Of a DNA stretch of 34,482 bases, positions 1,102 to 20,469 are shown piece after piece. Both the position numbers and the translations under genes were made by a program. Under the pieces are notes generated by a model that saw only the letters and a list, made by a program, of their open reading frames with translations, was not told where the DNA came from and searched no databases. The DNA comes from a virus. Positions within the stretch are counted from its first letter, which is position 1. Each line of letters begins with the position of its first letter. The stretch covers positions 1 through 34,482 of the IMG/VR virus record IMGVR_UViG_3300023235_001348; one strand, 5' to 3'.

Positions 1102-2043
1102 TTAACCGCTAGAGCTACTTGATGAACTAAAGCTACTTGAGCTGAAAGAACTGCTTGAACTAAATGAGCTACTTGATGAACTAGAACTACTTGAGCTGAA
1201 AGAACTGCTTGAACTAAATGAGCTACTACTTGATGATGAACTAGAAGAATCACTACTGCTTGATGATGAACTAGAATTACTTGAACTTGATGAGCTCGAA
1301 GAACTTGATGAAAGAGAAGATGAACTCGATGAGCTAGATGAGCTAGAACTTGAGCTAGATGAGCTAGAACTTGAGCTAGATGAGCTTGAAGAAGATCTAC
1401 TTGAACTAGACGATGAGCTGGAACTCATTGAACTAGAAGAACTAGAAGAACTAAAGTTTCCTTCAGGAGGATTATAAGAACTCCACCTAATCTCTTTTAA
1501 ATTAATACCGGAATGCAATAACTGATACGCGGCTAATTCTCTAGTTAATTTATCATCAGTAAACCTAACTTTAAAATAATATTCATAAGAAAGTAATATC
1601 GCGCCACTTGCCGGAATAGGATTGAATGTTATATATGATTTTTCAGTGGTAAAATTATTGCTTAAAGTGTAGTTTGTATTAGCAACGCCACCAACAGTAC
1701 AAGAACTATTTGCAGAAACATCAACAGGAAAATTATGAAGTAAAAAAGCGGCTGTTACTCCATCAGCTGACCCTAATGCTTCATCTGTTATTTGATACTC
1801 GGTAAGAATTTTTAATAAAAAATAATCATAAGCGCCTAACCTTGCAATATAAAAATCCCAAATTACATTCATTGCTGTTTGGGTTAGGAATTTACAAGTA
1901 AGGTTATAATCTCTTAATCCATGATCCCATAAAGCATCGCGTTGTTCTATGCCACTTTCAGAATCACTTATATTGGTATTAAAACTTATAGTTTCTTTTA
2001 AACCAAATTCAGGTGTTAATGTTAGTATATTAGTATTAGCCAT
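1102..2043 (-). CDS. DUF2460-family distal tail protein with long C-terminal poly-serine tail
   Basis: This protein has 313 residues. Residues 1 to about 197 look like the DUF2460 (TIGR02217) tail-tip family: an early region with SESGIEQRDALWDHGLRDYNL, then FYIARLGAYDYFLLK, matching the usual 'short insert, aromatic, F-x-D/Y' core. Residues from about 198 to 313 are almost pure Ser with scattered Met, Arg, Leu, Asn, Asp and Phe, ending in Gly. The known family has no such tail, so this is an appended module of about 115 residues. The serines use mixed AGY and TCN codons. The start ATG overlaps the last codons of the tape measure gene, implying translational coupling. In the gene-transfer-agent comparison this is gp12, the distal tail hub. 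A surface-exposed tail at the tail tip would be well placed to contact the host. Confidence 0.75.
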   Translation of the reverse strand: MANTNILTLTPEFGLKETISFNTNISDSESGIEQRDALWDHGLRDYNLTCKFLTQTAMNVIWDFYIARLGAYDYFLLKILTEYQITDEALGSADGVTAAFLLHNFPVDVSANSSCTVGGVANTNYTLSNNFTTEKSYITFNPIPASGAILLSYEYYFKVRFTDDKLTRELAAYQLLHSGINLKEIRWSSYNPPEGNFSSSSSSSSMSSSSSSSSSRSSSSSSSSSSSSSSSSSSSSSSSSSSSLSSSSSSSSSSSNSSSSSSSSDSSSSSSSSSSFSSSSSFSSSSSSSSSSSFSSSSSFSSSSFSSSSSSSG

Positions 2044-3979
2044 ATTTTTGTGTAATTCCTCTTAATGATTGATTATCCATTATGCTTCTTCCGGAAGCAT
2101 TTGCATAAATATCTCCGTTCTGCTGTAACCTTTCTCTGAATGATCGTTCATCAATAGTTTGAATATAATAATTATTTACTACTCCGCCGCCGCCGCCGGA
2201 ACCTTCTCCGCGATTAAGCTTATTCAAATTATCTACACCTAAATTGCCCATTGCTCTTCGGTTTAATACACCCTCACCCTCAAGTAATGTTGCGGGAACT
2301 TCTCCTCCAGAATGAAACTTCTTTCGATACCCAAAACTATTTTTTGAATCCATAATATACCCACCAGAATGAGCGCGTGCAGTTCCTGCATTAATAACGG
2401 CACCAACAACCCCTCCTGAATATCCTAATAGCCCAGCTGCTTTTTGCCATATTGACATTATTATTAAATTAGCAATAATATCTGTAATAGTTTTTAACAT
2501 TGCATCACCAAATGACACTAATACATCTTTTAATGATTCAAAATCTCCTTTGATAACCTTAAAAAAACCATCAGACATAGAATTACGCATATTAACAGCA
2601 AATGATTTCGTCATTACTTCCATAGCATCGTATTGATCTTTGGCATCTGTTAACGCAAGCTTTCGTAATTTTGTTACTTTAGCTTGATACCATTCCTCTA
2701 TCTCTAATTTTCTAGCTGCATTATCTTCAAATACTTTTAGGTATAAAGCATACTCTTGATTTAATTGTTCTATTTGATAATCAGCTCGAGTTCTTTGAAA
2801 TATTGAATATGTATCTGCCCATTCTTTTTGTGTTGCCATTTTAGCTTGTTCTGCTTCTATTATTTTACCTTGTTCTTTAAGTCTAATTGAATCCATAAAT
2901 GATTGAATTTCTAACTGTGTTTTTCTTGTTATCAAAGCAAGTCTTTCTTGTTGTTTCTCTGCAATCTTATTTGTAAGATTATCAGGTTTCATGAATAAGA
3001 AATTTTTCCCACTTATATTCTTGCTAGTTTTAATTAAAATTTGTAACGATTTATCAACTTTGCTTATTTCTTTATCTAATACCATCATTGCAGTAGAAGC
3101 ATTTTTACCAGACCACGTATCAAACATATCTTTCATTATTTTCATACCAGCCTGCAAATGAAATGTTTTATTAAGAAAAAAACCTAAAGCTTCTTTTGCA
3201 TCACTCCAAGCGTTAGCCATCTGCGCTACGCTACCTGCATAACTTTTTATATCTCTTTGAGCTCTTCCAGCCATCTTTCCTTCTATCAATCCAAGAACCA
3301 TTTCAAATTGTTTGGCTACAGACATGCTTTTAGGTATAGTAACTCCGAACAACCTAGATATTTGCATTGTATATCCAACAGCACTTTTTGCTATTAGCTC
3401 ACCCGCTTCTGATAGGCTTCTTCCGGACCCTGCTGCAAAATCTACAACAGCTTGGGTTGCTCTTTTTAATTTAGAAGGTACAACTCCGCCTACAGTAATT
3501 AATTTTTCCATTACTTCCAATATTGCTTCATCACCGTATCTAGTTGTTTCTTGAAAAGCAGCAGACAATTCTTTAAGATTATTTTGCATAAATTTAGAAG
3601 CAGTACCTTGGATTTCCATAGCAAAGCTAAGACGCTTTACAGCATCTTCTTGTATCATCATAGCTTTGGTAGCTGATTTAAAAAGATTGATTAATGGTCC
3701 TAAAGCAAACATCCAAACAAGTATTATGTTACGCATAGAACCAATAGATCCTATTAGCTTACCTATTTGAGCGTTGTGGAATCTTGAAAACCTTCCTGCT
3801 TTTTCATGTCCTTGCGCCATTTTATCTAAAGCCATAGCAGTTTCAGCCCCAGTTTTTTGAAATTGGACTCCTACCTTCTTCATGGAATTAATCATTGCTG
3901 CATTAGCTTTTATGACTTTACCAGAAGCTTTATCAACAAATGTTGCTCTAACTGTAAAATTTTGATCGCCTACTGCCAT
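2036..3979 (-). CDS. Tail tape measure protein
   Basis: This 647-residue protein lies directly after the tail assembly chaperones and before the tail-tip genes, the standard place for a tape measure. It is helical, with a hydrophobic segment at about residues 83-100 (MRNIILVWMFALGPLINLF). An N-terminal stretch resembles tape measures that act on membrane insertion. There are charged coiled-coil segments at about 340-450 and a glycine-rich run near residues 595-601 close to the C-terminus. At 647 residues it predicts a short-to-medium tail if the usual roughly 1.5 angstrom per residue rule applies (established for siphophages; inference here). No lysozyme or peptidase motif was recognised in it. 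It is followed with an 8-base overlap by the DUF2460 gene. Confidence 0.8.
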   Translation of the reverse strand: MAVGDQNFTVRATFVDKASGKVIKANAAMINSMKKVGVQFQKTGAETAMALDKMAQGHEKAGRFSRFHNAQIGKLIGSIGSMRNIILVWMFALGPLINLFKSATKAMMIQEDAVKRLSFAMEIQGTASKFMQNNLKELSAAFQETTRYGDEAILEVMEKLITVGGVVPSKLKRATQAVVDFAAGSGRSLSEAGELIAKSAVGYTMQISRLFGVTIPKSMSVAKQFEMVLGLIEGKMAGRAQRDIKSYAGSVAQMANAWSDAKEALGFFLNKTFHLQAGMKIMKDMFDTWSGKNASTAMMVLDKEISKVDKSLQILIKTSKNISGKNFLFMKPDNLTNKIAEKQQERLALITRKTQLEIQSFMDSIRLKEQGKIIEAEQAKMATQKEWADTYSIFQRTRADYQIEQLNQEYALYLKVFEDNAARKLEIEEWYQAKVTKLRKLALTDAKDQYDAMEVMTKSFAVNMRNSMSDGFFKVIKGDFESLKDVLVSFGDAMLKTITDIIANLIIMSIWQKAAGLLGYSGGVVGAVINAGTARAHSGGYIMDSKNSFGYRKKFHSGGEVPATLLEGEGVLNRRAMGNLGVDNLNKLNRGEGSGGGGGVVNNYYIQTIDERSFRERLQQNGDIYANASGRSIMDNQSLRGITQKYG

Positions 3980-3980
3980 A

Positions 3981-4286
3981 TTACACCTTATGTTTACTGT
4001 TCATTACTTTTATCTCAGCTGATTCTAAAATGTCGAATATATCTAATAGTTTTGCTGGTTGCTGTGCAACACTACCGGGGAAAGGTAACAATCCTTTTTT
4101 ATAATATTCATAATATTTTATATACGTTTTTACCTCTGGTGGTAGCATTTTTGCTATGCACCTATCCGCTGGCTTACCATCTATTAAATATGGCTGAATT
4201 GGTTTGCCATTACACCCACGAAATTTCTTTTGATGTTCATTACAATCGTGGCAATTAAGGCCTAAGCTTGACACCTCAACTGCCAA
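3981..4286 (-). CDS. Tail assembly chaperone T-like extension, reached by -1 frameshift
   Basis: This is a 101-codon frame that has no ATG. Its only nearby start is a TTG at 4286-4284, and no ribosome binding site precedes it. It lies in the -1 frame relative to the upstream chaperone gene, whose stop codon is three bases away and is preceded by the slippery heptamer A AAA AAC. The natural reading is that this frame is translated only as the C-terminal part of a G-T fusion of about 239 residues. It contains a Cys cluster (NCHDCNEHQKKFRGC) that might bind metal. In lambda the T region recruits the tape measure protein, and the tape measure gene follows directly here. Independent TTG initiation is possible but less likely. 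Confidence 0.75.
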   Translation of the reverse strand: MAVEVSSLGLNCHDCNEHQKKFRGCNGKPIQPYLIDGKPADRCIAKMLPPEVKTYIKYYEYYKKGLLPFPGSVAQQPAKLLDIFDILESAEIKVMNSKHKV

Positions 4287-4288
4287 TA

Positions 4289-4699
4289 TTAGTTTTTTTC
4301 TAAATCTTCACCAACCTCGTTTTCACCCCAAATTATTGCGGCTAATTCATTTATTACAAATAAAGGAATTGCTCTCATAGTTTCATCAGCAACAACTTCA
4401 ATTTCAATATTGAAAACTTTTTCTTTTTTTGTTTTAAACTCTAATTCTTTTCCATTGATCTTGAAGTTTTTAAATCCTTTTAATCCATATTTTAAGATAG
4501 TAAAATTATTTTGTGTATAATCAATATCTCCTTGAACGTAAACTGGTTTATCATCTTTTATCTCAATTTTACCAAAGCTTGAAATAAACTTTGATTTCAT
4601 AATAGAGTCTAATGGACCTATTAACCAAATTGTAGGATTTACTTTATCCTTTTCTAATGTGTATTCTTTTGTCATTCCGACACTGATTGGATCTACCAC
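4289..4699 (-). CDS. Tail assembly chaperone, G-like
   Basis: This 136-residue protein sits between a gp10-like gene and the tape measure. The start is GTG (4699-4697), with AGGAGGG five bases upstream. A later ATG (residue 9) has no comparable site. The sequence includes KVNPTIWLIGPLD, similar to the 'x-T-x-W-x-L-x-L-L' opening of phage tail assembly chaperones, and ends GENEVGEDLEKN. The last three codons GAA AAA AAC plus TAA form a perfect -1 slippery site, which identifies it functionally as the G half of a G/GT pair. G and GT coat the tape measure during tail tube polymerisation. The sequence-level family match is modest. The context and frameshift site carry the call. Confidence 0.75.
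   Translation of the reverse strand: MVDPISVGMTKEYTLEKDKVNPTIWLIGPLDSIMKSKFISSFGKIEIKDDKPVYVQGDIDYTQNNFTILKYGLKGFKNFKINGKELEFKTKKEKVFNIEIEVVADETMRAIPLFVINELAAIIWGENEVGEDLEKN
4292..4298 (-). other. Programmed -1 ribosomal frameshift site (A AAA AAC)
   Basis: On the minus strand the codons GAA AAA AAC TAA end the G-like gene, so the heptamer A AAA AAC is in the exact X XXY YYZ phase for -1 slippage. After a slip the reading continues CTA ATA TTG GCA and enters the downstream 101-codon frame with no stop. This is the standard arrangement for lambda-type tail assembly chaperones. No strong downstream stem-loop or pseudoknot was confirmed by eye. Confidence 0.8.
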
Positions 4700-4710
4700 G
4701 ACACCCTCCT

Positions 4711-5187: not shown

Positions 5188-5197
5188 TCATATCCTT

Positions 5198-6217
5198 TTA
5201 AGCACTCTCACTACTAGAACTTGACGAACTAGAACTGCTTGAACTATTTGAACTACTTGAGCTAGATGAACTAGATGATGTTCCCATAGTAATTGTTATC
5301 TCATCATTACCCGCGTCTGAATTCTTACAAATTTCGCAAGTAGCACTTAACGCCGCAATACCACTTCTATCAGCTTCTTTTAATCCTGTGTACCTTACTG
5401 CCGGCAATGAAAAAGTAATATTATTTCCATTGCTATCATTCATATTAATCACTACAGCCATTGTAGAACGAGAAAGTATCTTTGAATAAAAATCATGGCT
5501 AGCAATAGAAACTAATTCAGGGTCAAATGACATTTGTGGATTTCTACCAACTATTTTAGCATAATCAATACCAGATGAATCTTGAGGTCTAGGAGATATA
5601 ACAACTTCATTCTGCATATCAATTTCTAAAGTATCCATTACTAAACTATCACTGTCAATAGTAACAGTTGCACCCATAAAAATTAAAGGAACTTGTTCCG
5701 GGTATGTAGGAGTTAACAGTGCAGTATCGCTATGTTCGTAATATTTACCTTCCATTGCAAATTCACAAAAAACAGGTTCACCAACTTTAAACTGAAATTT
5801 AACATTACCGGCACAACCTGACATTGTTTTTCTTATTCCATCTAAGTATTTAGCTACTGTACAGGTAACAAAACTACTTGATACAGGAACATAAATATTA
5901 GATGTTCCAACTGAAAGGCTTTCTGACAATCCACAAGAACGAAGAAACGGCGTTAGTGGTAGTGTTGTTCCTTTTGATCCGGATATTGGCCCCATTAACT
6001 CAGCTTTAAAAGCAAGCGACATTTTCCTTGCACCAGGCTCAGAAGCAAACCTAGACATATGCTTCACAACAGGATTTCTTTTATACTGTTCAAAATCAGC
6101 ATCTAACACTGGCTCATATGACAGTATTGTAGCTTGTGCTGCTGCTAATGTTTCTGCTGTTCCACTAATAGTTTCTACTTTTCCTGCTAATTGAGCAACT
6201 CTTGATATTTTAGCCAT
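5198..6217 (-). CDS. Major tail tube protein with short C-terminal poly-serine tail
   Basis: This protein has 339 residues. Residues 1 to about 312 look like a phage tail tube protein: it opens AKISRVAQLAGKVETISGTAETL, followed by a beta-rich body with EPGARKMSLAFKAEL and EFAMEGKYYEHS, and it sits just ahead of the tail assembly chaperones. An AGGGAGG ribosome binding site precedes the ATG. The last 27 or so residues are Ser interrupted by one Asn, ending Glu-Ser-Ala. The same Asn-then-Ser-then-Glu-Ser ending closes the decoration protein at 7846-8400, which hints at a shared tail module. If the tube has the usual hexameric rings, a Ser tail on each subunit would line or coat the tail in many copies. 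The tail tube call is good. Which face the tail occupies is unknown. Confidence 0.75.
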   Translation of the reverse strand: MAKISRVAQLAGKVETISGTAETLAAAQATILSYEPVLDADFEQYKRNPVVKHMSRFASEPGARKMSLAFKAELMGPISGSKGTTLPLTPFLRSCGLSESLSVGTSNIYVPVSSSFVTCTVAKYLDGIRKTMSGCAGNVKFQFKVGEPVFCEFAMEGKYYEHSDTALLTPTYPEQVPLIFMGATVTIDSDSLVMDTLEIDMQNEVVISPRPQDSSGIDYAKIVGRNPQMSFDPELVSIASHDFYSKILSRSTMAVVINMNDSNGNNITFSLPAVRYTGLKEADRSGIAALSATCEICKNSDAGNDEITITMGTSSSSSSSSSSNSSSSSSSSSSSSESA

Positions 6218-6231
6218 TTTCTTTCCCTCCT

Positions 6232-6678: not shown

Positions 6679-6688
6679 GCATAATAAA

Positions 6689-7494: not shown

Positions 7495-7788
7495 TTAAGA
7501 AGAACTCGAACTCGACGAAGAAGAACTCGACGAAGAAGAACTCGACGAAGAAGAACTCGACGAAGAAGAACTCGAGCTATATGAACTCGAACTAGAACTA
7601 GAACTCGAACTAGAATAAGTATTTGTATTAGGAACTACTTTACCAGTTAGCTGATGTTTTCTTCGTTCATTCATAATAAAATTGCAGTCATTTTCAACAA
7701 CGTTGAACAATCCACATGCAATATTCTCACAAACAATTCCTGCACCGGCATTATTTTTAAAAGGGCATTTATAAGCGGGATATGCCAT
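7495..7788 (-). CDS. Small Cys-rich protein with poly-serine tail
   Basis: This 97-residue protein has a strong AAAGGAG ribosome binding site. Residues 1-57 contain four Cys: C8 in YKCPFKN, C20 in IVCEN, C25 in ACGLF and C35 in NDCNF. The spacing could hold one zinc ion or two disulfides. Residues 58-97 are Ser with a single Tyr interruption. The DNA for the C-terminal tail holds a perfect 15-bp tandem repeat (four copies at 7511-7570), so this tail appears to have grown recently by duplication. It lies among head and tail structural genes, which suggests a virion component. I do not recognise a family. Confidence 0.7.
   Translation of the reverse strand: MAYPAYKCPFKNNAGAGIVCENIACGLFNVVENDCNFIMNERRKHQLTGKVVPNTNTYSSSSSSSSSSSYSSSSSSSSSSSSSSSSSSSSSSSSSSS
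7511..7570. repeat. 15-bp perfect tandem repeat, four copies, encoding serine
   Basis: Four identical 15-base units (ctcgacgaagaagaa on the plus strand) run head to tail and encode five Ser each on the minus strand. A partial unit continues past 7570. This is the only exact tandem array seen in the smaller serine tails. The others are degenerate. Confidence 0.85.
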
Positions 7789-7845: not shown

Positions 7846-8400
7846 TTAACTAGATTCGCTTGAGCTCGAACTAGATGAGCTAGAACTACTTGAGTTTGAT
7901 GAGCTTGAGCTTGAGCTTGAGCTACTTGAGCTACTTGAGCTTGAGCTACTCGAGCTTAATGAACTACTTGATGAACTTAATGAGCTACTTGAGCTACTTG
8001 ATGAACTTGATGAGCTACTGGAAAAAGATGATGAACTGGATGATGAACTAGAAGTATTTCCAGCTACAGTTACATTTAATGCGTACCAATAACTGCCGTC
8101 ACACCAAAACTCAGCAGATTCATACTTTCCTATATTAGCAGTATCATAACTAGCTCCCCCACCACCAAATCCGGCAGCAACATATACAATGCCTTGATCA
8201 GATGTATTAACATAAACACTAGCGCCTTTTAAACTATCACTAGCGGCAGGTAAAGTTAGTGTATTTCCTGAAGTTAATTTAACAAATAAAGATCCACTTC
8301 TTTCAACATCATTCTCTGTCAGAGAGTAATCTGCGGATTTACTTAGGGTTGTACCCCTACGGTTAGCGACACTATATTTATATCTGGTAGGTTTTGGCAT
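7846..8400 (-). CDS. Capsid decoration / head-fibre-like protein with poly-serine tail
   Basis: This protein has 184 residues. Residues 1-116 form a beta-rich domain with KLTSGNTLTLPAASDSLKG, VAAGFGGGGASYDT and EFWCDGSYWYAL. The last motif, ending in an aromatic-rich strand, is typical of small phage head-fibre or decoration domains. It is clearly paralogous to the next gene upstream (8418-8759), sharing TRYKY-VAN-RGT-LSK-ADY, GFGGGGASYDT and FWCDGSYWYAL. Residues from about 117 to 184 are Ser with a few Phe, Leu and Asn, ending Glu-Ser-Ser. The paralogue lacks this tail. It lies two genes after the capsid gene, and decoration of the head is the best guess. No enzyme motif is present. Confidence 0.65.
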   Translation of the reverse strand: MPKPTRYKYSVANRRGTTLSKSADYSLTENDVERSGSLFVKLTSGNTLTLPAASDSLKGASVYVNTSDQGIVYVAAGFGGGGASYDTANIGKYESAEFWCDGSYWYALNVTVAGNTSSSSSSSSSFSSSSSSSSSSSSSSLSSSSSSLSSSSSSSSSSSSSSSSSSSSNSSSSSSSSSSSSESS

Positions 8401-8417: not shown

Positions 8418-8759
8418 TTAGCTAGCACCAACCGCATTAGATAATGCGTACCAATAACTGCCGTCACACCAAAACTCTATAGTATTATATGCTCCTACGG
8501 TTACAGTATCATAACTAGCACCACCACCACCAAAACCAGCAACAACAGCTACTTTAGATGAACCGCTACTTCCAAAAACATATACACTTGTACCTTTTAA
8601 ATTTCCACTAGCGGCAGGCAATGTTAACTTATGACCATCAACTTTAAAAAACTGACCGGATCTTAAAATATCATTTTCTAATATTGTATAATCTGCTGTT
8701 TTAGAGAGAACAGTACCTCTTTCATTTGCTACTCCATATTTATATCTTGTGAATTTCAT
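8418..8759 (-). CDS. Capsid decoration / head-fibre-like protein without serine tail
   Basis: This 113-residue protein is the paralogue of the product of 7846-8400 and ends just after the shared FWCDGSYWYAL motif (final residues SNAVGAS). The two proteins are collinear throughout, with small differences in the loop after GxxSVYV. It is the first gene after the major capsid gene, with an AAGGAGG ribosome binding site, consistent with high expression as a head decoration or fibre protein. Because it differs from its neighbour mainly by lacking the poly-serine module, it is a natural control for the tail's function. Confidence 0.65.
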   Translation of the reverse strand: MKFTRYKYGVANERGTVLSKTADYTILENDILRSGQFFKVDGHKLTLPAASGNLKGTSVYVFGSSGSSKVAVVAGFGGGGASYDTVTVGAYNTIEFWCDGSYWYALSNAVGAS

Positions 8760-11831: not shown

Positions 11832-13658
11832 TTATTTTTTCAAAACCCAAAAGTCTGAGTTCTCATTTTCTCTCTTAGCTGTAAAAATACCTTTAATTTT
11901 TTTACCAGAAAACTCTATTATTTTCTCTAACTCTGTGCTTTCAAGAATAGATATATTTCCTCTATCTATTACTTTAATCCAAGAAAGCATATCAGTAATA
12001 TTAAAATCACTATGAGGTAACATAAATGATATTCCCTCTGAAAGTTTCCTAACAGAGTATTCTGAAGGTTTTATATAAAAAGTTGATTCTTTGAATTCAT
12101 CTTCGATCAAACTTTTATTTTCAGACAAATGAATATCTATTCCTAAATCAGTAGAAACAGTAAAATTATCTATCTTATCATTTTTGTTTCTCCACCATTG
12201 ATTATAAAAAGTAAAGTTACCTATCTTCTTTTCTGCTTCTTTCATTTTTATATTAAACTTATATCCGCGATAATCAACATTGCTGTCTTTTAATTCTTTT
12301 AATGTTTTAAATGATTGTTCAGATTTATCAGGTTGCACAACAGTATATTTATACTCTGTGTATTTATCAAACAACTCTAAAGCAAACGGAGAAAGCTTTT
12401 CTGGATGGAAATCAGTAATACCAGATTCTATGATGTCAGATACACAACCACGAAATGAACTCTTTAACTGCTCGAATGTTTTATCAACATCATCACCTCT
12501 TCTTTTAGCCGCATATAACTTTAGTATATCTTTTAAATCATCAACTAAAGATTCTTTGTTATCAACTTTTCCTATCATTGGTGTTCCGCACTTAGGACAT
12601 TTACTTTCATTACAAGGAGTTCCTCTGTTATGTTTAATTTCTTCTTTACACTTAGGGCAAACACAAACATCTGTTCCAGCATCACCTTGTCTAGGACCAC
12701 CAACGCCTAATCCTAATCCACGTACTTCCGATAACCTTAGGTTATCAACAAAGTCAACTATTGATTCCTTTATATCATCATCTATTTCAGATTCTAAATA
12801 AGTTGAGTTCTCTTTTATTGGATAATTAGAAACCATTAATTCTGATTTCCTAGCCATATGACCTGCTGATGGTGCAGCAATATTATATTGAGAAAGTATC
12901 TTTCTATCATACTTTGATTCTTTCCAACCGTCACAAACTTCATACGTAACCATCCACTTACCCGGAACAGTTTTTGTAAATGATTCAAATTCATTTTGTG
13001 TCGGACACCACTTCCAATCCATCTTAGCTGACGGATAAGGAGGATCCATAAAAGTAAAAGATTCTTTGTTCGCATATTTTTTAATAAAATCTCTGTAATC
13101 CATATTTTCTATTGTTACGTCTTGCAGACGTTCTTTTATCTTTAGCATTCGTGTAGTTACTTTCATAACATCACCTTCAGATCTATTATCAAAGGAACTC
13201 ATCTGACCTGCATCTGAAGCTCCTTTGATATAAACATAACGATAGAACTGATAAACAGGGTCGTTATGCTGACTACTTTCTTTCCACTCAGGAAGCAATT
13301 TATTAAATGTATCTTTAGATGTTTTCCAATCAAGCTTATTTAATGATTCAACTTGTTGTTCTGTTATGTCTTTCATAAACTTAAAACAAGAAGCAATATC
13401 ACTATCTCTATCGTTTATAAATTCTTCTTCACTTCTCTTTTTTCTGAACAATATAGATCCACCACCAATAAATGATTCAACGTATCTTTTATGTTCTGGA
13501 AACAATCTTATTAGTTTCCCGGCAACAAAAAATTTACCACCGGGAGAACCAAACGCAGGCTTTACACCTTCCATAAAGTTATCGTTTTTAGAAACGATGT
13601 CTATTTTATCTAAAGAGAAATCTTCTAACAAAGCAATCAAAAACCCTTTATTCTTCAT
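11832..13658 (-). CDS. Adenine-N6 DNA methylase (D12/Dam class) with zinc ribbon and long C-terminal domain
   Basis: This 608-residue protein has an N-terminal part (about 33-285) that is a D12-class adenine methylase: AFGSPGGKFFVAGKLI binds SAM, VESFIGGGSILF follows, FINDRDSDIASCF is the acidic loop, and the catalytic DPPY is at 205-208. A linker contains GLGLGVGGPRQGDAG, then a zinc ribbon with Cys334, Cys337, Cys354 and Cys357 (two CPKC pairs) plus Cys332 and Cys349. Residues from about 365 to 608 are unrecognised. Stand-alone Dam proteins have about 270-300 residues, so this is roughly double length. The gene lies between portal and capsid, where morphogenesis rather than DNA-modification genes are expected. 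Likely roles are protection from host restriction or marking DNA for packaging (inference). Start ATG overlaps the portal stop. Confidence 0.8.
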   Translation of the reverse strand: MKNKGFLIALLEDFSLDKIDIVSKNDNFMEGVKPAFGSPGGKFFVAGKLIRLFPEHKRYVESFIGGGSILFRKKRSEEEFINDRDSDIASCFKFMKDITEQQVESLNKLDWKTSKDTFNKLLPEWKESSQHNDPVYQFYRYVYIKGASDAGQMSSFDNRSEGDVMKVTTRMLKIKERLQDVTIENMDYRDFIKKYANKESFTFMDPPYPSAKMDWKWCPTQNEFESFTKTVPGKWMVTYEVCDGWKESKYDRKILSQYNIAAPSAGHMARKSELMVSNYPIKENSTYLESEIDDDIKESIVDFVDNLRLSEVRGLGLGVGGPRQGDAGTDVCVCPKCKEEIKHNRGTPCNESKCPKCGTPMIGKVDNKESLVDDLKDILKLYAAKRRGDDVDKTFEQLKSSFRGCVSDIIESGITDFHPEKLSPFALELFDKYTEYKYTVVQPDKSEQSFKTLKELKDSNVDYRGYKFNIKMKEAEKKIGNFTFYNQWWRNKNDKIDNFTVSTDLGIDIHLSENKSLIEDEFKESTFYIKPSEYSVRKLSEGISFMLPHSDFNITDMLSWIKVIDRGNISILESTELEKIIEFSGKKIKGIFTAKRENENSDFWVLKK

Positions 13659-15066
13659 TTGTCGCTACTCCTTTTTCTTCTTCTTTCTTATTATCATCAG
13701 CATCACTATCTACATTATCATCAGCCTCACTATCTACATCTACACCTAATTGTGATATTACTGCATTAATAATAGTTTTAGCCTTCTTATCACTAACCCA
13801 TTTTTTATCAGATGCTTGAACCAATCCAGATATTAATCCTGACATAGCTTCAGCAGTTCCTTTGCTGCTATCTCTAGAAACTATTGGAGAAGGAATAACT
13901 TTAAAAGTCTTATCAACACCCTCTTTTAATACACCAGCTATTATTGCTTGGTCAATGACAAAATCAAACATCCGCTTAATTAGAAACTTTATTTTTTTCT
14001 GTTTAGTCTTTAAATTTTTAAGAGTAGGAAGCGACATTTCCATAGCTGTTGCACGTGTAGTTTTATCACCTTCAGCAAACCAATGCCCCGGGAATCCAGC
14101 ACCACCTAAAATCTGGTTCTTAAATAAGGCTGCTTCACCTGATGCATCAGCTGATTCTAATTTAGGTGTTTCTGACTTCCAGGTGATTTTTTCATTATGA
14201 GCTCTTATAGAGCCAGGTCTAGGCGGCGCTAATTTTTTTACAAATTCTTGAAGCTCTGATTCATTCATTCCTTCACAAGCAACATCCCAAATAAACGAAT
14301 TCAACAAGAATGCTCTTTCTAACCTTGTAAAAAGAAATTGATCATATCCATCTAGCCAATCAGCTAATCTTAATAACACACTTCTACCGCGCGTTGCTGA
14401 ACTTACTTTATTTATTGTAAAGTAAAAACAATCTCCAACTAACTTCCCATATGTTTTTGACCTAAGATTTCTATCAACATTTATTATACTCATTTCTTGT
14501 TCTTTAGAAGAACCACTTAATCTTTTCCATATTAATGATTTTTGTATCTTTGGATTATTTCTATCTTTTCTAATTTTTAAAATTGTCTTTGGATCTATAT
14601 ACCCTAGCTTAACTGCACCGTTAGCTGAATTAACCCAAGTCGGTAAACATAACTCACCAAACAAATATAGTTCAACAACATTAACATTCATTTCTTCATC
14701 AAGGTTATTATCCGGATCGTTCCAAAAATTATCGATAACTTCTTTTACATTAGGATCTTTGACTGAATAAGTAAATCCGTCACCAATAACAAAATCTTCT
14801 ATAATCTCGATAATCCTGCCTGCCATAGGATTGCTATCATATAAATAGAACGCAATATCCTGCATTCTATTCTGTGTAAGGAGGCTCAAATCCCTGAGTG
14901 AATTAGATGTCAAAGAACGCCATTGAGCATCTTCACCAGTACCCCCTACCATTGGGTATGATTCAGCTATTCTTCTCTGTAACTCTATTGACCTTTTTTT
15001 ACGTTCTTTAAAATTCAATATAACATTACTTGAATCTTGTTCTGGTTGATCTTTCTTTCTTTTCAT
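13648..15066 (-). CDS. Portal protein
   Basis: This 472-residue protein follows the large terminase directly, the standard position. The core shows portal features: RMQDIAFYLYDSNPMAGRIIEIIEDFVIGDGF near the N-terminus, NVNVVELYLFGELCLPTWVN, then GYIDPKTILKIRKD and the helical clip region FPGHWFAEGDKTTRATAMEMSLPTLKNLKTKQK. Twelve copies would form the DNA entry channel at one capsid vertex. The C-terminus carries an acidic near-repeat, VDSEADDN then VDSDADDN, followed by KKEEEKGV, which may be disordered. Its start slightly overlaps the end of the large terminase gene. Confidence 0.85.
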   Translation of the reverse strand: MKRKKDQPEQDSSNVILNFKERKKRSIELQRRIAESYPMVGGTGEDAQWRSLTSNSLRDLSLLTQNRMQDIAFYLYDSNPMAGRIIEIIEDFVIGDGFTYSVKDPNVKEVIDNFWNDPDNNLDEEMNVNVVELYLFGELCLPTWVNSANGAVKLGYIDPKTILKIRKDRNNPKIQKSLIWKRLSGSSKEQEMSIINVDRNLRSKTYGKLVGDCFYFTINKVSSATRGRSVLLRLADWLDGYDQFLFTRLERAFLLNSFIWDVACEGMNESELQEFVKKLAPPRPGSIRAHNEKITWKSETPKLESADASGEAALFKNQILGGAGFPGHWFAEGDKTTRATAMEMSLPTLKNLKTKQKKIKFLIKRMFDFVIDQAIIAGVLKEGVDKTFKVIPSPIVSRDSSKGTAEAMSGLISGLVQASDKKWVSDKKAKTIINAVISQLGVDVDSEADDNVDSDADDNKKEEEKGVATNEE

Positions 15067-16646
15067 AATATATGGCTCCTTCTTGCTATTCTTCTATCAC
15101 CAATAACGCTGGAAACAGAAGTTCCTTTAAACATATTTCTTCCAATTCTTCTAACAAAATTCCCTTCATTATCTCTAATATCATCCCCGGGGTCTAAACT
15201 AACAACTACGCCTGATGCTTTTGTTACAGGAAATAAATAATTTATTCCATACTCAACAGCATTAACAGCATGAGTAAATTTATTATCTATATGATCTTCC
15301 CTAGATTTATTAAGCGTAACCCCATTGATACATTGTGCAAAGTTTAAGCAAGTCGGTTCATTTGATATATTAAATTGTGGTCGTCCATTAATATATCTTT
15401 TAAGGCAAGTTCTTACACACTTCATCTTTTCATAATTAGAAAGTTCTCTAGATTTAATTAATATTTGATTATTAGATACTGTTTTCCAATCGCTGATTAC
15501 ACTTGTCTTGGTAACTCTATTTCTTTTGTTTCCTGACTTATCACCTATAAATATTATATCCTTAATCTCTCCTGAATATCTAATAGCATCTAAACACTTT
15601 TTAAATTCTTGATATAATTCGGTAGTTAACTTATCTCTATATATTTTATAATAGATTATAAATAATCTATCTTCAAAATCTTTTTGTGCAAATACAAATG
15701 GCTCACCGTCAAGACCAAAATCCATAAAGCAATATAATTTTGATTTTGGATTAAGATATACTTTATGACTTAATAAATGTAATTTCTTATCATACTCTGG
15801 ATAAGAACGATTTGTTAAAGCCTTATCGTACTGACGTAATATTTCTTGTGCTATTTCCTGTTCACTCATAGAAGCAGTTTTTTTATCATACCAACCTTGT
15901 GTATGGTCTGGGTTTAAATTCCAGTCAAAACCAAGTTTAACAAATCCAGAGTTTTTCATATCTTTTACTTCCGCAAATTTATTATTCACACTTTCTTTCG
16001 GAGGTGTAGAATTTAAGCATAACGTATTTGTAGCATTCCTTAATCCTTTATACATTTCATCTAAGCAATCAACAAAAGCTGCTTCATCAACTAATATAAA
16101 TTTATATTGCGTATCCCTTCCGGCTTTAGGATTAGCTGATTCACCCTTTATAACAGAATTCATTAAAGGAACTGAAAAAACTAAAAAAGGATTATGTACC
16201 TTTGGTTTAATGAACGGAGGAAGCCGTTGATACATAAATGCCAACCTACCATGCAAAGAATGAAAAGTATTACCGTTATCTTGCACTTCTGATTCTTTTC
16301 TAGAAATATTTAATGCGGTAAATCCTTTAGTGTAACAAACTTGATGTAATTCCCACCCCATAACTGACCAAGAAATACCCATATCTCTGCATTTATCAAT
16401 AAATACATCTTCATACTTATCTAACTGATTGATTAATTTAATTTGATAATCACGTAAAGTAAATGGGAGAATCGATGGCGTTTTACGAGTATCTATCGTC
16501 CATACATAATTATTAAACCAATAAACCTTATCTTCTACACAACGCCTATACTCACTAAACTGCCACTTTTTTGCATCCTTTGGAGATCGTGTAGCAATTT
16601 CTTTTTTCCAATCAATTCTTTCTGTATTATGTATCATCACTTGCAT
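15063..16646 (-). CDS. Terminase large subunit
   Basis: This 527-residue DNA packaging motor protein has a deviant Walker A-like motif, KCRDMGIS (85-92), as found in many phage terminases (the adenine-binding RDYQ lies just before, at 65-68). Walker B with the catalytic Glu is FILVDEAA (183-190). A coupling motif, LNSTPP, follows near 211-216. The C-terminal nuclease has CFMDFGLDGEP (Asp309 region), FIGDKSGNKRN (Asp369) and an Asp/His-rich segment, DHIDNKFTHAVNAVEYGI. ATG at 16646 has GAGGAG ten bases upstream, inside the end of the small subunit gene. It pumps DNA into the prohead through the portal encoded next to it. All key residues appear present. Confidence 0.9.
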   Translation of the reverse strand: MQVMIHNTERIDWKKEIATRSPKDAKKWQFSEYRRCVEDKVYWFNNYVWTIDTRKTPSILPFTLRDYQIKLINQLDKYEDVFIDKCRDMGISWSVMGWELHQVCYTKGFTALNISRKESEVQDNGNTFHSLHGRLAFMYQRLPPFIKPKVHNPFLVFSVPLMNSVIKGESANPKAGRDTQYKFILVDEAAFVDCLDEMYKGLRNATNTLCLNSTPPKESVNNKFAEVKDMKNSGFVKLGFDWNLNPDHTQGWYDKKTASMSEQEIAQEILRQYDKALTNRSYPEYDKKLHLLSHKVYLNPKSKLYCFMDFGLDGEPFVFAQKDFEDRLFIIYYKIYRDKLTTELYQEFKKCLDAIRYSGEIKDIIFIGDKSGNKRNRVTKTSVISDWKTVSNNQILIKSRELSNYEKMKCVRTCLKRYINGRPQFNISNEPTCLNFAQCINGVTLNKSREDHIDNKFTHAVNAVEYGINYLFPVTKASGVVVSLDPGDDIRDNEGNFVRRIGRNMFKGTSVSSVIGDRRIARRSHIL

Positions 16647-17226: not shown

Positions 17227-17227
17227 A

Positions 17228-17533
17228 TTAATGCGCCTCTTTCTTTTTTACTAAAAATTCTATTGTTCCTGTACGTTTATCTGCCCCTGAATTAAATGTT
17301 GCGTAAAAAAATAACGCAAATGATCCTACTATCAATGGAGTGTATTTATATCTTATTTGTGTGCCGGCAATCGTAGCTGTTGTTTCAGCTAACACTGCAG
17401 TAGTAGAACCAACCTTCCATATTTGAACTTTGGCGCTATTAGTGTCCGGTGTTTGCGCTTCACCAACAATCTCGAATGATCCGCGGAATGTTACATCATC
17501 CGCAACGTAATATAAGTTTTTTCTGTTTGGCAT
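17228..17533 (-). CDS. Small beta-rich virion-type protein, unknown
   Basis: This 101-residue protein is predicted almost wholly beta (VTFRGSFEIVGEAQ, AKVQIWKVGST, AVLAETTATIAGTQIRYKYTP, GSFALFFYATFN). The pattern fits a single immunoglobulin-like or small beta-sandwich domain. It is encoded between the giant poly-serine protein and the terminase small subunit, with short gaps on either side. No Cys and no enzyme motif are seen. A role as an accessory structural domain, perhaps with the giant serine protein, is only suggested by position. Confidence 0.6.
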   Translation of the reverse strand: MPNRKNLYYVADDVTFRGSFEIVGEAQTPDTNSAKVQIWKVGSTTAVLAETTATIAGTQIRYKYTPLIVGSFALFFYATFNSGADKRTGTIEFLVKKKEAH

Positions 17534-17547
17534 ACTATATCTCCTTG

Positions 17548-20469
17548 TTATTGTTCATCAAATTTATAATTATATGTTTTATTATCAAATTTATAATTGC
17601 TTGTATCATCTTTAAATTCATAATCATATGTTTTATTAACAAAATCAACTTGATATGGTAATGATGAAGCCGAGCTTGATGAACTAGAAGAACTTGAGCT
17701 TGATAATGAACTTGAACTGCTTGAACTACTTGAAGAACTAAAAGAACTTGAACTACTTGATGAGCTTGAACTGCTTGAACTGCTAGATGAGCTAGAGCTA
17801 CTTGATGAGCTAGAGCTACTTGAACTGAATGAACTGCTTGATGAACTAGAACTACTTGAACTGCTTGAACTGCTAGATGAGCTAGAGCTACTTGATGAGC
17901 TTGAGCTACTTGAACTGAATGAACTGCTAGATGAACTGGAACTACTTGAGCTACTTGAACTGAAAGAACTACTAGATGAACTGGAACTACTTGATGAGCT
18001 TGATGAGCTTGAGCTACTAGAGCTACTTGATGAACTTGAACTAAAGGAACTACTAGACGAGCTTGATGAGCTTGAGCTACTTGATGAACTCGAAGAAGAA
18101 GAACTTGAGCTGAAAGAACTACTTGATGAGCTTGATGAGCTTGATGAACTAGAGCTGAAAGAACTGCTTGAGCTACTTGATGAACTAGAACTACTTGAGC
18201 TGAATGAACTGCTAGAGCTACTTGATGAACTGGAACTACTTGAACTGAAAGAACTGCTAGAGCTACTTGATGAACTGGAACTACTTGAGCTGAAAGAACT
18301 GCTAGAGGAACTTGATGAGCTTGAGCTACTAGAGCTACTACTTGAGCTACTTGAACTAAATGAACTACTTGATGAACTACTTGAGCTACTTGAACTAAAT
18401 GAACTACTTGATGAACTACTTGAGCTACTTGAGCTGAAAGAACTACTTGAGCTACTTGATGAACTGCTCGAGCTGAAAGAACTACTTGAGCTACTTGATG
18501 AACTGGAACTACTTGAGCTAAAAGAACTGCTTGAGCTACTTGATGAACTGGAACTACTTGAGCTGAAAGAACTGCTAGAGCTACTTGATGAACTGGAACT
18601 ACTTGAGCTGAAAGAACTGCTAGAGGAACTTGATGAGCTTGAGCTACTAGAGCTGAAAGAACTGCTAGAGGAACTTGATGAACTGGAACTACTTGAGCTG
18701 AAAGAACTGCTTGATGAACTAGACGAGCTTGAACTGCTTGATGAGCTAGAACTACTTGAGCTAAAGGAACTACTTGAGCTACTTGAGGAACTAAAAGAAC
18801 TATTTGAACTACTAGAACTACTTGATGAACTGGAAGAACTTGAGCTAAATGAACTACTCGATGAGCTTGAACTGCTAGAACTTAAAGAACTACTTGAGCT
18901 ACTAGAAGAACTAGAACTGCTTGAACTGAATGAGCTACTAGAAGAACTAGAACTGCTTGAACTGCTTGAACTAAATGAGCTACTTGATGAACTAGAACTA
19001 CTTGAGCTACTTGAACTAAATGAGCTACTTGAGCTACTTGAACTACTAGAACTATATGAGCTACTTGAGCTACTTGATGAACTAGAACTACTTGAGCTAC
19101 TAGAACTGCTAGATGAACTACTTGAGCTACTAGAACTGCTAGATGAACTAGAACTGCTTGAGCTGAAAGAACTACTTGAACTGCTTGATGAACTGCTTGA
19201 GCTACTTGAGGAACTAGAAGAACTTGAACTAAAAGAACTGCTAGATGAACTGCTTGAGCTACTTGAACTGAATGAACTGCTTGATGAACTGCTTGAGCTA
19301 CTTGAGGAACTAAAAGAACTGCTTGATGAGCTAGAACTGCTAGAACTGCTTGAGCTACTTGATGAGCTTGAGCTATATGAACTACTTGAGCTACTAGAAC
19401 TGCTAGATGAACTAGAACTGCTTGAGCTGAAAGAACTACTTGATGAGCTTGATGAGCTTGAGCTACTAGAGCTAAAGGAACTACTTGAGGAACTTGATGA
19501 GCTTGAACTGCTAGAACTTAAAGAACTACTTGAGCTACTTGATGAACTAGAAGAACTGAAAGAACTACTTGATGAACTGGAAGAACTGCTTGAGCTGAAT
19601 GAGCTACTTGAAGAACTTGAACTGAATGAACTGCTTGATGAGCTTGATGAACTAGAACTACTTGATGAGCTAGAGCTACTTGAGCTAAAGGAACTACTTG
19701 AGCTGCTTGAGCTACTAGAACTGCTTGATGAGCTAGAGCTACTTGAACTGAATGAACTGCTTGATGAGCTACTAGAGCTACTTGAACTTAATGAACTGCT
19801 TGAGCTACTTGATGAGCTTGAACTACTTGAGCTGAATGAACTGCTAGAGCTACTAGAAGAACTAGAAGAACTTGAACTAAAGGAACTACTTGAAGAACTA
19901 CTTGAGCTACTTGAGCTGAAAGAACTACTTGAGCTACTTGATGAACTTGATGAGCTAGAGCTAAAAGAAGAACTTGATGAACTGCTTGAGCTACTTGAGC
20001 TAAATGAGCTACTTGAGGAACTAGAAGAACTAGAGCTACTAGAACTTAATGAACTACTTGAGCTACTTGATGAGCTTGAACTACTTGAGCTGAAAGAACT
20101 ACTTGAGCTACTTGAAGAACTAGAGCTACTTGAGCTGAATGAGCTACTTGATGAACTGGAACTACTTGAGCTATATGAACTGCTTGAGGAACTAGAAGAA
20201 CTAGAGCTACTTGAACTTAATGAACTGCTTGAGCTACTTGATGAACTAGAACTGCTTGAGCTGAATGAACTGCTAGAGGAACTTGATGAACTTGAACTGA
20301 TAGAACTTAAAGAGCTACTTGAGGAACTAGAACTGCTTGAGCTTAATGAACTACTAGAACTGCTTGAGGAACTAGAAGAACTAGATGAACTAGAACTTCC
20401 TAACGTTCCGTCATAGCTTAGGTTGCTGTCATCATAAGCATTACTACTCTGGTCGTATATTATTGCCAT
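17548..20469 (-). CDS. Giant poly-serine protein (about 909 residues of Ser with periodic Phe/Tyr/Leu)
   Basis: This 973-residue protein has three parts. Residues 1-24 (AIIYDQSSNAYDDSNLSYDG) contain Tyr-Asp at seven-residue spacing. Residues 25-933 are Ser interrupted almost only by single Phe, fewer Leu and Tyr, and one Ile and one Asn. The breaks usually come after 12 or 14 serines, giving 13- or 15-residue periods. Residues 934-973 are charged and aromatic and carry an internal repeat (NKTYDYEF, DNKTYNYKF). All six serine codons occur, with AGY and TCN boxes mixed, and both ends stay in frame, so the open frame looks selected. There is no signal peptide or enzyme domain. It lies between fibre genes and terminase. 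A long, heavily modified virion fibre is the best hypothesis. Function is not known. Confidence 0.8.
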   Translation of the reverse strand: MAIIYDQSSNAYDDSNLSYDGTLGSSSSSSSSSSSSSSSSSLSSSSSSSSSSSLSSISSSSSSSSSSSFSSSSSSSSSSSSSSLSSSSSSSSSSSSSSYSSSSSSSSSSSFSSSSSSSSSSSSSSFSSSSSSSSSSSSSSLSSSSSSSSSSSSSSFSSSSSSSSSSSSFSSSSSSSSSSSSSSFSSSSSSSSSSSSFSSSSSSSSSSSSSSFSSSSSSSSSSSSSSLSSSSSSSSSSSSFSSSSSSSSSSSSSSSSSSSSFSSSSSSSSSSSSSSSSSSSSFSSSSSSSSFSSSSSSSSSSSSFSSSSSSSSSSSSLSSSSSSSSSSSSSSFSSSSSSSSSSSSSSFSSSSSSSSSSSSSSSSSYSSSSSSSSSSSSSSSSSSSSFSSSSSSSSSSSSSFSSSSSSSSSSSSFSSSSSSSSSSSSSSSSSSSSSFSSSSSSSSSSSSSSSSSSSSSSSSSSSSSSSSSSSSYSSSSSSSSSSSFSSSSSSSSSSSSSSFSSSSSSSSSSSSSSFSSSSSSSSSSSSSSLSSSSSSSSSSSFSSSSSSSSSSSSSSNSSFSSSSSSSSSFSSSSSSSSSSSSSSSSSSSSFSSSSSSSSSSSSSSFSSSSSSSSSSSSSSFSSSSSSSSSSSSSSFSSSSSSSSSSSSSSFSSSSSSSSSSSSSSFSSSSSSSSSSSSFSSSSSSSSSSSSFSSSSSSSSSSSSFSSSSSSSSSSSSSSSSSSSSSFSSSSSSSSSSSSSSFSSSSSSSSSSSSSSFSSSSSSSSSSSSSSFSSSSSSSSSSSSSSFSSSSSSSSSSSSSSSSSSSSSSFSSSSSSSSSSSSSSSSSSSSSSSSSSFSSSSSSSSSSSSSSFSSSSSSSSSSSSSSSSSSSSSSSSSSSSSFSSSSSSSSSSSSSSSSSSSSSSSSSSSSFSSSSSSSSSSSLSSSSSSSSSSSASSLPYQVDFVNKTYDYEFKDDTSNYKFDNKTYNYKFDEQ
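17560..17640. repeat. 27-bp imperfect direct repeat in the 3' end of the giant serine gene
   Basis: Bases 17560-17586 and 17614-17640 are near-identical (about 24 of 27 match), 54 bases apart (18 codons), and encode the repeated peptides NKTYDYEF and DNKTYNYKF. Confidence 0.7.
17671..20397. repeat. Degenerate low-complexity repeat tract encoding poly-serine
   Basis: This is 2,727 bases built from short AGY/TCN combinations, on the plus strand reading like gaact, gagct, acttg and gatga blocks in varying order. Units of 39 and 45 bases recur wherever a Phe or Leu codon is inserted, for example around 18356-18500. Copies differ at many synonymous positions, so it is not an exact tandem array. 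Confidence 0.85.

Follow-up and report, generated by a model that had tools for sequence, protein, structure and literature searches.

Poly-serine proteins and sugar-attaching enzymes shared by unrelated uncultured phages suggest sugar-coated stalks on virions

Why would the head, tail and baseplate genes of one phage carry long runs of serine codons, and do these runs belong with the glycan genes of the same genome? The window analyzed here is the whole 34,482-nucleotide stretch of IMG/VR record IMGVR_UViG_3300023235_001348. As the first-pass annotation had stated, five structural-type genes carry poly-serine tracts (scoring runs of at least 10, with Ser +1 and any other residue −3), all of them in frame, on the minus strand and 23 to 909 residues long. 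A DUF2460 baseplate-type protein (313 aa, 1102-2043; Pfam DUF2460, 4.9e-21) ends in the tract at 1108-1452 (105/115 Ser), and a probable tail tube protein (339 aa, 5198-6217), whose gene precedes that of the tape measure, ends in the tract at 5210-5278 (22/23 Ser). Poly-serine C-termini are also found in a small Cys-rich protein (97 aa, 7495-7788; tract 7498-7614, 38/39 Ser) and in a probable head decoration protein that adjoins the capsid gene (184 aa, 7846-8400; tract 7858-8052, 61/65 Ser). A paralogue of the latter without poly-serine (8418-8759) is 63% identical to its N-terminal domain. The fifth is a giant protein of 973 aa (17548-20469; tract 17671-20397, 852/909 Ser), earlier described as about 93% low-complexity serine; the tract does make up 93% of its length, whereas serine accounts for 88% overall. 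The names "tail tube" and "decoration", taken over from the first-pass annotation, rest on gene order and are given as probable. The former is supported by PHROG 290 (minor tail protein, 2.8e-14) but had no match among PDB sequences (limit 0.1), and the decoration protein has no solid family match and PDB sequence matches of E 0.14 or worse.

Background serine in the window is 6.7% of 9581 residues, from which a run of 15 serines at one site has a probability of about 3e-18, so that a chance origin of the tracts is excluded. The tract DNA has a 9-base and a 45-base periodicity, and its serine codons mix TCN with AGY (54% AGY in the big tract). Besides serine, the five tracts contain 73 residues, namely F (50), L (11), Y and N (4 each), and I, M, R and D (1 each), with F, L and Y in the big tract showing a spacing peak of 15 residues. 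Thr, Gly, Pro, Ala and Cys are absent, versus about 36 expected from one-step codon changes with transitions weighted 2. Given this codon mix and a residue spectrum unlike that of one-step changes, a simple DNA microsatellite was rejected as the whole story. An assembly or translation artefact was also rejected, because the tracts recur in 11 loci with 100% identical TerL and in divergent relatives; the big protein is encoded in all 11 (973 aa in 10, 867 aa in L004). Poly-serine is absent from two TerL outgroups (28-29% identical; L025, 13.2 kb, and L026, 4.4 kb), which are too short for the cassette to be judged.

Four of the five window tracts form the end of the protein, with no domain behind them. 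Among relatives, the tract often lies between a virion-anchor domain and a sugar-binding domain, and it joins two folded domains in G002, G003, G006 and G007. In the decoration proteins of G002, G003 and G006 it is followed by an F5/8-type C (galactose-binding) domain, and in the DUF2460 relative of G007 by a galactose-binding-like domain (GBD_T9SS_assoc, 7e-6, just under cut-off). Relatives of the giant protein have variable N-termini, with a LamG domain in G004 (1.9e-19), and share its conserved C-terminal tip of TYxYKF-type repeats. The tract is conserved in the tail tube protein of G002, G003, G005, G007 and G008 and in the Cys-rich protein of G002, G003, G005 and G006. Since tracts in relatives often link an anchor to a sugar-binding domain, "stalk" fits better than "coat"; of the first-pass proposal, the pairing of tracts with a glycan cassette gains support, and the mucin-like coat stays hypothetical.

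Tracts that follow LamG, or that lie between an anchor and a domain of F5/8C or galactose-binding-like type, would also suit plain flexible linkers or spacers that display sugar-binding domains as in Saccharophagus polysaccharidases, with the cassette serving something else. More than one in four S. degradans depolymerases have domains set apart by poly-serine regions, and glycosylation goes unmentioned in the passages of that paper on bacterial polysaccharidase linkers (PMC2386152). Saccharophagus and Cellvibrio linkers resemble the phage tracts in lying between functional domains by carbohydrate-binding modules (PMC2386152), whereas the phage tracts belong to virion-type proteins, reach 909 residues, are often terminal, contain spaced Phe and are accompanied by a sugar cassette. 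Plain linkers appear unlikely as the explanation, as terminal tracts without a domain behind them and the spaced Phe would be left unexplained.

Candidate enzymes for the preferred reading, in which the stalks are glycosylated, are encoded by a cassette at 23349-33030 on the minus strand. It belongs to the same genome as the tracts but lies outside the interval (1102-20469) in which the first-pass annotation had set the two side by side. GT9a (23349-24191), a GT9-like glycosyltransferase by alignment that matches the GT9 protein 3tov weakly in sequence (PDB, E 0.009), is present across phage groups. It is followed by GTA1 (24708-25745), a GT8-like GT-A glycosyltransferase with an LDADM motif, the methyltransferase MT24a (25759-26427; Methyltransf_24, Pfam 5.9e-17) and GTA2 (26511-27386), labeled a second GT-A-like protein in the first-pass annotation, which has a 34% identical relative in G007 and no Pfam match at 0.01. 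Accessory genes encode a LicD-like phospho-substituent transferase (27383-28024; Pfam LicD, 1.3e-11; BLAST relatives in L364, L365 and L371), a DUF2061 membrane protein (28021-28425; Pfam 3.5e-10; relative in L364) and an NAD-dependent sugar epimerase/dehydratase (29647-30684; Pfam Epimerase, 4.3e-47). The CDP specificity once assigned to this epimerase was not recovered: its matches to dTDP-glucose dehydratase (3e-43, the best) and GalE (4e-38) models are all below cut-off, and among relatives it has no match in G006 and only 25% in G007. The supposed cytidylyltransferase at 28546-28989 appears instead to be a nucleotidyltransferase closest in sequence to heptose-1-phosphate adenylyltransferase (rfaE_dom_II, TIGR02199, 7e-20, below cut-off; PHROG 7878, 5.6e-14), with relatives in L364 and L371. 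The core cassette genes are MT24b (28995-29675; Methyltransf_24, Pfam 2e-12), found in 16 of 25 GT9b-bearing records, and GT9b-MT24 (30681-32456), in which a GT9 heptosyltransferase-fold domain is fused to Methyltransf_24 (Pfam 1.4e-15). The last gene encodes the methyltransferase MT11 (32449-33030; PHROG 6564, 2.5e-12; relatives 47% in G007 and 64% in G012). A Pfam scan of 30 window proteins, in which more distant relatives could be missed, gave no GT1/GT4-type match.

The predicted fold of GT9b (AF2, mean pLDDT 82) is that of the GT9 heptosyltransferases, with Z scores of 22.1 to 3tov, 21.1 to 1psw and 18.9 to TibC; in Foldseek, TibC had the highest query TM (0.61-0.68 over the listed chains; 3tov 0.61). 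GT9b has the GT9-type GT-B catalytic fold in common with TibC, a bacterial autotransporter heptosyltransferase (BAHT; PMC4358343) that acts on protein. Across 11 sequences, GT9b has four invariant clustered Cys (264, 270, 278, 289) and a fifth apart at 235; the cluster, in its C-terminal part, has a spacing of 6-8-11, versus 3-16-12 in the four-Cys iron finger of TibC (339, 342, 358, 370; PMC4358343). The N-terminal beta-barrel domain of TibC is absent from GT9b, whose model (1-311) aligns from TibC residue 92 on. Assignment as a clear BAHT member was not kept, because TibC scores lower than 3tov by Z, and LPS heptosyltransferases and a plain GT9 enzyme reach an equal or better Z. A first GTA1 alignment found no match among PDB sequences (limit 1), and the GTA1 model (AF2, mean pLDDT 85.5) is GT8-like in fold, matching WbbM (Z 18.7), glycogenin 3u2t (Z 18.0, rmsd 3.8, 231 aligned) and GlyE (Z 17.8), the last from the pneumococcal Ser-rich repeat protein system.

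Glycosylation of mycobacteriophage virions involves phage-encoded glycosyltransferases, and the window likewise encodes its own, with GT9 and GT8 folds (GT9b, GTA1). Glycans are reported at the C-termini of mycobacteriophage capsid and tail-tube subunits (PMC12619734, citing Freeman 2023), which makes the earlier statement that no such system had been described too strong. The window differs in its near-pure, long poly-serine on five proteins and in a cassette common to otherwise unrelated phages; no homologs of GT9b or GTA1 were found in 50,697 phage records (tblastn, 1e-5). Fap1-type Ser-rich repeat adhesins also combine a long Ser region with a dedicated glycosyltransferase cluster (PMC5207161), whereas the window has phage virion-type proteins, near-pure Ser, GT9 and GT8 types and no recognized Gtf1/2 pair.

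Cassette and tracts are nearly all that the unrelated phages share, which plain linkers would leave unexplained. With tracts masked and ORFs of at least 80 aa compared at E 1e-5, the window genome (G001) has only cassette genes in common with G017, G018 and G021 (6, 5 and 8, respectively), which belong to two unrelated groups, and four cassette genes plus one 131-aa ORF in common with G025. The portal is SPP1-like in the window genome and P22-like in G018. The contiguous order in G025 is capsid, poly-Ser gene, cassette, poly-Ser genes and virion genes, and the same order, cut by record ends, is found in G018 and G020. As in Ser-rich repeat protein systems, Ser-rich genes adjoin glycosyltransferase genes, an adjacency that says nothing of substrate use.

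Poly-serine is present in 21 of the 25 GT9b-bearing records, or in 18 of 21 after merging four near-identical pairs (G012/G013, G015/G016, G026/G027 and G032/G033, at least 95% identical; five pairs compared), with kinship uncorrected. The 10-11 window copies count as one record, and the jumbo G030, read in part, lies outside the 25; among the tracts counted, those of G026/G027 (18 residues), G031 (37) and G017 (27, where the record is cut) are short. The overlapping set of GTA1-bearing records gives 21 of 23, also uncorrected for kinship, and 9 of the 10 outside the GT9b set. In the podovirus family (80 of 106 relatives kept in the capsid scan), to which G018, G020, G021 and G025 belong as one group, six of 14 loci of at least 15 kb have both traits, eight have neither and none is mixed (Fisher 3e-4, kinship uncorrected). 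The L122 cassette is weak (GT9b 37%, GTA1 and GT9a absent). The podovirus control loci (n=63, 617 kb) include L138, with one MT24a match, and L178 and L182, which end inside the capsid gene. This co-occurrence across unrelated phages, a check proposed in the first-pass annotation itself, supports its view that enzymes and tracts belong together.

The search was also run from the poly-serine side (tract score at least 20). GT9b, Methyltransf_24 or GT2 is found in 15 of 25 such records versus 3 of 25 controls (p 9e-4, kinship uncorrected), both sets being a sample among the DNA pattern matches listed and biased to alternating TCN/AGY codons. The controls were hand-chosen pattern matches whose examined locus lacked any poly-Ser ORF, long records being favored; one of them (G066, 197 kb, with a GT9b relative) was read in part. 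Loci scoring 10-19 fall in neither set, L220, L245, L249, L252 and L253 were left out as window-family or repeated, and the poly-Ser-first records G048 and G054 are similar by tract size. Tails without a cassette, named at the outset as the finding that would speak against the pairing, do occur in part: all three enzyme families are missing from 10 of the 25. Since all 10 are only 4-31 kb and two (G042, G045) are incomplete records from the family of the window itself, enzyme absence there carries little weight. GT9b is absent from 18 of the 25, among them the 31-kb G057 and the 108-kb G058, whose locus L289 has three poly-Ser ORFs, and a search of both sets together (50 records), made without a positive control, found no GTA1; a strict cassette requirement was dropped for these reasons.

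The pairing could stem from a common host type, perhaps Planctomycetes-Verrucomicrobia-Chlamydiae, with the cassette altering host surface glycans for receptor masking or superinfection exclusion. The LicD, RfaE-II-like, epimerase and DUF2061 genes of the cassette are typical of surface-glycan loci, and 20 of 21 GT9b-relative loci in a bacterial genome collection bear the title of a MAG from that superphylum. However, the podovirus cassette lies among virion genes with poly-Ser genes on both sides, and the wider cassette is found in only one of the 21 genome loci, L191, together with two poly-Ser proteins, one of which matches minor tail protein families. With a cassette and a poly-Ser, tail-like protein, L191 looks like phage DNA, and we consider host-glycan alteration quite improbable. 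L191 is an Anoxychlamydiales MAG contig, and a firm host was not deduced from it because the binning may be wrong. Elsewhere among these loci, L201 has a 136-residue Ser-rich ORF by its GT9b relative, on the opposite strand of a DNA repeat with QP spacers and possibly no gene, and L195 and L200 have 12-residue Ser runs only.

DNA-modifying phage glycosyltransferases are well known. They are named in PMC12619734, and the cassette might likewise glycosylate phage DNA bases; against this, no base-hypermodification gene was found among the window proteins scanned, which represent half of the genome, and the cassette sits by virion genes and pairs with Ser tracts. This function is extremely improbable.

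Judging from sequence, the window probably covers much of the genome of an uncultured tailed phage that bears poly-Ser stalks on its head, tail and baseplate proteins and O-glycosylates them with its own cassette. Encoded on the same strand beside virion genes, the enzymes would modify the tract serines inside the infected cell, before virions are assembled. Either or both of GT9b and GT9a would start or extend from Ser, possibly with heptose, as the RfaE-II-like gene hints; GTA1 and GTA2 would extend the glycan, and the methyltransferases and LicD would cap it. Bulky sugars would make the tract a stiff, hydrated, protease-resistant stalk that keeps the sugar-binding F5/8C or LamG tips at a distance from the particle, and in the window genome itself mostly a naked brush. 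We infer Ser as acceptor, and likewise the starting enzyme, sugar, expression time and stalk role. More tentatively, phages with unrelated heads and tails may swap poly-Ser stalk genes and a matched cassette as a mobile kit, with GT9b as a Ser O-heptosyltransferase, bottlebrush, mucin-like, lectin-tipped stalks and Planctomycetes-Verrucomicrobia-Chlamydiae hosts.

Virion glycosylation has already been reported at mycobacteriophage protein C-termini, and the window system is most likely a new, transferable form of it. Taken together, the long-Ser proteins and sugar-attaching enzymes shared by uncultured bacterial viruses of unrelated groups suggest sugar-coated stalks on their particles. The acceptor (poly-Ser) is simple and the enzyme set compact, and both could be rebuilt in E. 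coli, so that the question of a mucin-like phage surface is directly testable. There is also reason to retain giant Ser ORFs that might otherwise be dismissed as low complexity. If the proposal is true, virion glycosylation would extend beyond the mycobacteriophages, as a transferable trait that has an acceptor polymer of its own.

Five ORFs in the window, encoding the DUF2460, tail tube-type, Cys-rich, decoration-type, and giant 973-aa proteins, carry poly-serine tracts, which confirms the first-pass annotation on this point. Both kinds of serine codons are used in these window tracts, where nearly every residue other than serine is Phe, Leu, Tyr, or Asn. When 55 tracts of relatives were pooled, 7313 Ser residues were counted versus eight Thr, three Ala, and one Gly. 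Based on the mixed codons and the near-absence of Thr, Ala, and Gly, serine in the tracts seems to be kept by selection. Within the giant protein, a large hydrophobic residue recurs approximately every 15 residues. Tract length varies, given that locus L004 (3300035698_008150), with an identical TerL, encodes a giant protein of 867 aa rather than 973 (106 residues shorter). The tracts at L191:7046-10320, on an Anoxychlamydiales MAG contig, are rich in Cys (SSSSCSSSC), compared with a single Cys in the pooled phage tracts.

The whole IMG/VR record is the window (34,482 bases), and its minus strand holds nearly all of the long genes. The TerL gene (window 15063-16646) has matches in 270 phage records, of which the ten listed carry terminase annotations at 25-28% identity. 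A 100% identical TerL occurs at eleven loci in viral_contigs, and nine of these loci belong to records of 63.5-64.0 kb. Because six of the TerL-identical records have exactly 63,847 bases, each opened at a different point, this is probably the complete genome length. One of these records, G001, serves as the window genome here. The window portal is of the SPP1 type and the capsid belongs to Phage_capsid_4. Between the portal and capsid genes lies a D12-class adenine methyltransferase gene (window 11832-13658) with a long C-terminal region; a D12-class methyltransferase occurs near the same place in relatives G002, G003, G004, G006, G007, and G008, and was not seen in G005.

Among 12 TerL relatives at 55-76% identity (L012-L020 and L022-L024), tracts are present in all except L018, a 6.5-kb piece, and in the mapped relatives they are on the same proteins as in the window. 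In G002, G003, and G006, the tract of the decoration-type protein is followed by an F5/8-type C galactose-binding domain (2.6e-7 to 2.8e-6). The giant protein of relatives has a variable N-terminus, which in G004 is a LamG lectin domain (1.9e-19), and a conserved C-terminal tip. Four tandem DUF2460 paralogues of 623-705 aa (G007; L038:9032-17006) resemble a set of exchangeable adhesins. Two of the four carry poly-serine linkers, which in G007 connect DUF2460 to a C-terminal region about 430 residues long. Since the tract in relatives is often a linker, the tracts are read here as stalks, and the naked window tails as stalks without tips. The fibre-like proteins of the window (22263-23306) and of record G044 (L346:10090-11526) have in common an N-terminal stretch of the SDPLNxPSHS type (by eye). 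A protein of podovirus record G020 (34677-35519), with poly-serine at its end, matches the window fibre-like protein at residues 1-41.

The cassette (window 23349-33030, minus strand) includes GT9b (30681-32456), for which a GT9 heptosyltransferase fold was predicted by modeling and whose window copy carries a fused methyltransferase. The fold matches of GT9b are 3tov (Z 22.1), 1psw (Z 21.1; rmsd 3.6, 261 aligned), WaaC (19.6), and TibC (18.9). GTA1 is GT8-like, with matches to WbbM (18.7), glycogenin (18.0), pneumococcal GlyE (17.8), and LgtC (17.4). Glycogenin initiates glycan synthesis on the side chain of a protein; GlyE comes from a serine-rich repeat adhesin locus. Across 11 GT9b sequences, four invariant Cys are clustered in the C-terminal part. 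In TibC, a protein heptosyltransferase, iron is bound by four Cys (PMC4358343). GT9b differs from TibC in Cys spacing and has no beta-barrel. The gene previously labeled a cytidylyltransferase is instead nearest to heptose-1-phosphate adenylyltransferase; this RfaE-II-like enzyme is an accessory gene, with relatives in L364 and L371. Taken together, these enzyme assignments hint at a heptose-type glycan, which may be taken as a lead only. An HNH endonuclease gene (Pfam HNH_3, 5.9e-10) is found beside GT9a on the opposite strand (window 24160-24666, plus strand). The reverse-strand reading of 24193-24705 begins like a second GT9a start (MLRLKRIW...), and an HNH-like ORF (by eye) occupies the corresponding position in G006, flanked by GTA1 and GT9a. 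A small GroES-like protein (labeled by eye; window 33694-33996) adjoins the cassette and is kept in G006, G007, G012, and G023.

The first-pass annotation proposed that these enzymes decorate the serine tails, and co-occurrence in relatives was among its suggested checks. A GT9b-alignment scan found 36 loci, corresponding to 25 records after window copies were counted once and the jumbo record was left out. In raw record counts, uncorrected for phylogeny here and below, poly-serine is present in 21 of these 25. The exceptions are G014 (16.5 kb), G028 (8 kb), and the duplicate records G032 and G033, whose GT9b relative is only 30% identical. After merging four pairs at least 95% identical, the count is 18/21. 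The GTA1 scan yielded 33 loci in 23 records (window copies merged), and 21 have poly-serine (all except G014 and L380, a 10.5-kb contig); ten of these records are outside the GT9b set, nine of them with poly-serine. In the podovirus capsid family, poly-serine was found in none of 63 comparison loci (617 kb) outside the cassette clade; L125 and the more distant members have none. Within the near clade of this family, as defined by a capsid scan, 12 of 15 additional loci (L111-L124 and L162) encode a poly-serine protein, the exceptions (L113, L115, and L121) being short pieces. Among the 14 podovirus loci of at least 15 kb, cassette and tracts are both present in six and both absent in eight.

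In the converse direction, poly-serine records were sampled by scanning for a pattern in which serine codons alternate, and 25 of them with clear tracts were compared with 25 controls. GT9b was found in seven versus one, Methyltransf_24 in ten versus two, GT2 in seven versus two, and any of these in 15 versus three; for records of 13-110 kb, at least one of the three was found in 12/16 versus 2/20. Ten of the 25 poly-serine records lack all three families, which counts against a strict rule. A GTA1 search of these 50 records, run without a positive control, found none. These counts suggest that the cassette in its exact form is the mark of one large pool, and that, more widely, sugar enzymes tend to accompany poly-serine in phages. 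The jumbo phage record G034 (547,943 bases; L329 and L210) has eight GT2 matches and a GT9b relative (3.5e-107) in addition to poly-serine ORFs; the 18 kb around its GT9b relative contain no tract.

An all-against-all comparison (tracts masked, ORFs of at least 80 aa, E 1e-5) was conducted on G001 and on records not known to be complete, such as G021 (26 kb). All genes that G001 has in common with G017 (six), G018 (five), and G021 (eight) are cassette genes. With G025, four cassette genes and one 131-aa ORF are common; with G044, only GT9b; and with its own relative G007, 36 non-cassette genes. Capsid, portal, and terminase are common to G018, G021, and G025, which therefore form one podovirus group, and G018 has a P22-like portal and a phrog_334 capsid. 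The tape measure of G017 is of the PhageMin_Tail type, and neither a terminase nor a portal was recognized in this record; G044 has a phrog_371 capsid and a phrog_332/1216 portal. Because the overlap of G001 with G017, G018, and G021 is limited to cassette genes in the compared set, phages with unrelated virion genes appear to have in common the cassette, the serine tracts, and little else. In G025, the capsid gene is followed by a small gene, a poly-serine gene, another small gene, the cassette, poly-serine genes, and further virion genes; G018 and G020 have the same order, cut by record ends. In the window group, the cassette, the giant poly-serine gene, and the terminase genes share one strand, with the cassette upstream of the others.

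Related features are described in other systems, including glycans on the C-termini of mycobacteriophage capsid and tail tube proteins (PMC12619734), Fap1-type adhesins with dedicated glycosyltransferase clusters (PMC5207161), and poly-serine linkers in polysaccharidases (PMC2386152). In a survey of 102 phage proteomes, low-complexity regions reached a maximum length of 115 residues, and the three residues enriched most were Ala, Gly, and Pro (PMC6821194). A poly-serine virion system was not found in the literature searched, mostly open-access titles and abstract openings. No GT9b or GTA1 relatives were found in 50,697 phage records (tblastn, 1e-5). Among 21 GT9b-relative loci in the genome collection, 20 (two from one MAG) bear titles of Verrucomicrobia, Planctomycetes, or Anoxychlamydiales MAGs, and the remaining one that of a delta proteobacterium. 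The Anoxychlamydiales MAG locus L191 encodes two poly-serine proteins, of which one has matches to minor tail protein families, along with five genes of the cassette type. These titles, a basis for a guess only, and the content of L191 make a host in the Planctomycetes-Verrucomicrobia-Chlamydiae superphylum the leading guess. On a 178-kb Verrucomicrobiia contig, a serine-rich ORF with S-tracts and QP spacers (L201:9376-9834, minus strand) lies beside a GT9b relative and may be a DNA repeat rather than a gene.

The best reading is that the cassette would O-glycosylate the tracts stepwise in the cytoplasm, before assembly. The initiating enzyme may be GT9b (core, and methyltransferase-fused in the window) as a first guess, with GTA1 second, and the Methyltransf_24 methyltransferases may cap hydroxyls. 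Such glycosylation would give stiff, hydrated stalks, which may serve to present tips, to protect against proteases, or to bind glycans in the environment. Of these functions, tip presentation is favored by the sugar-binding tips in relatives.
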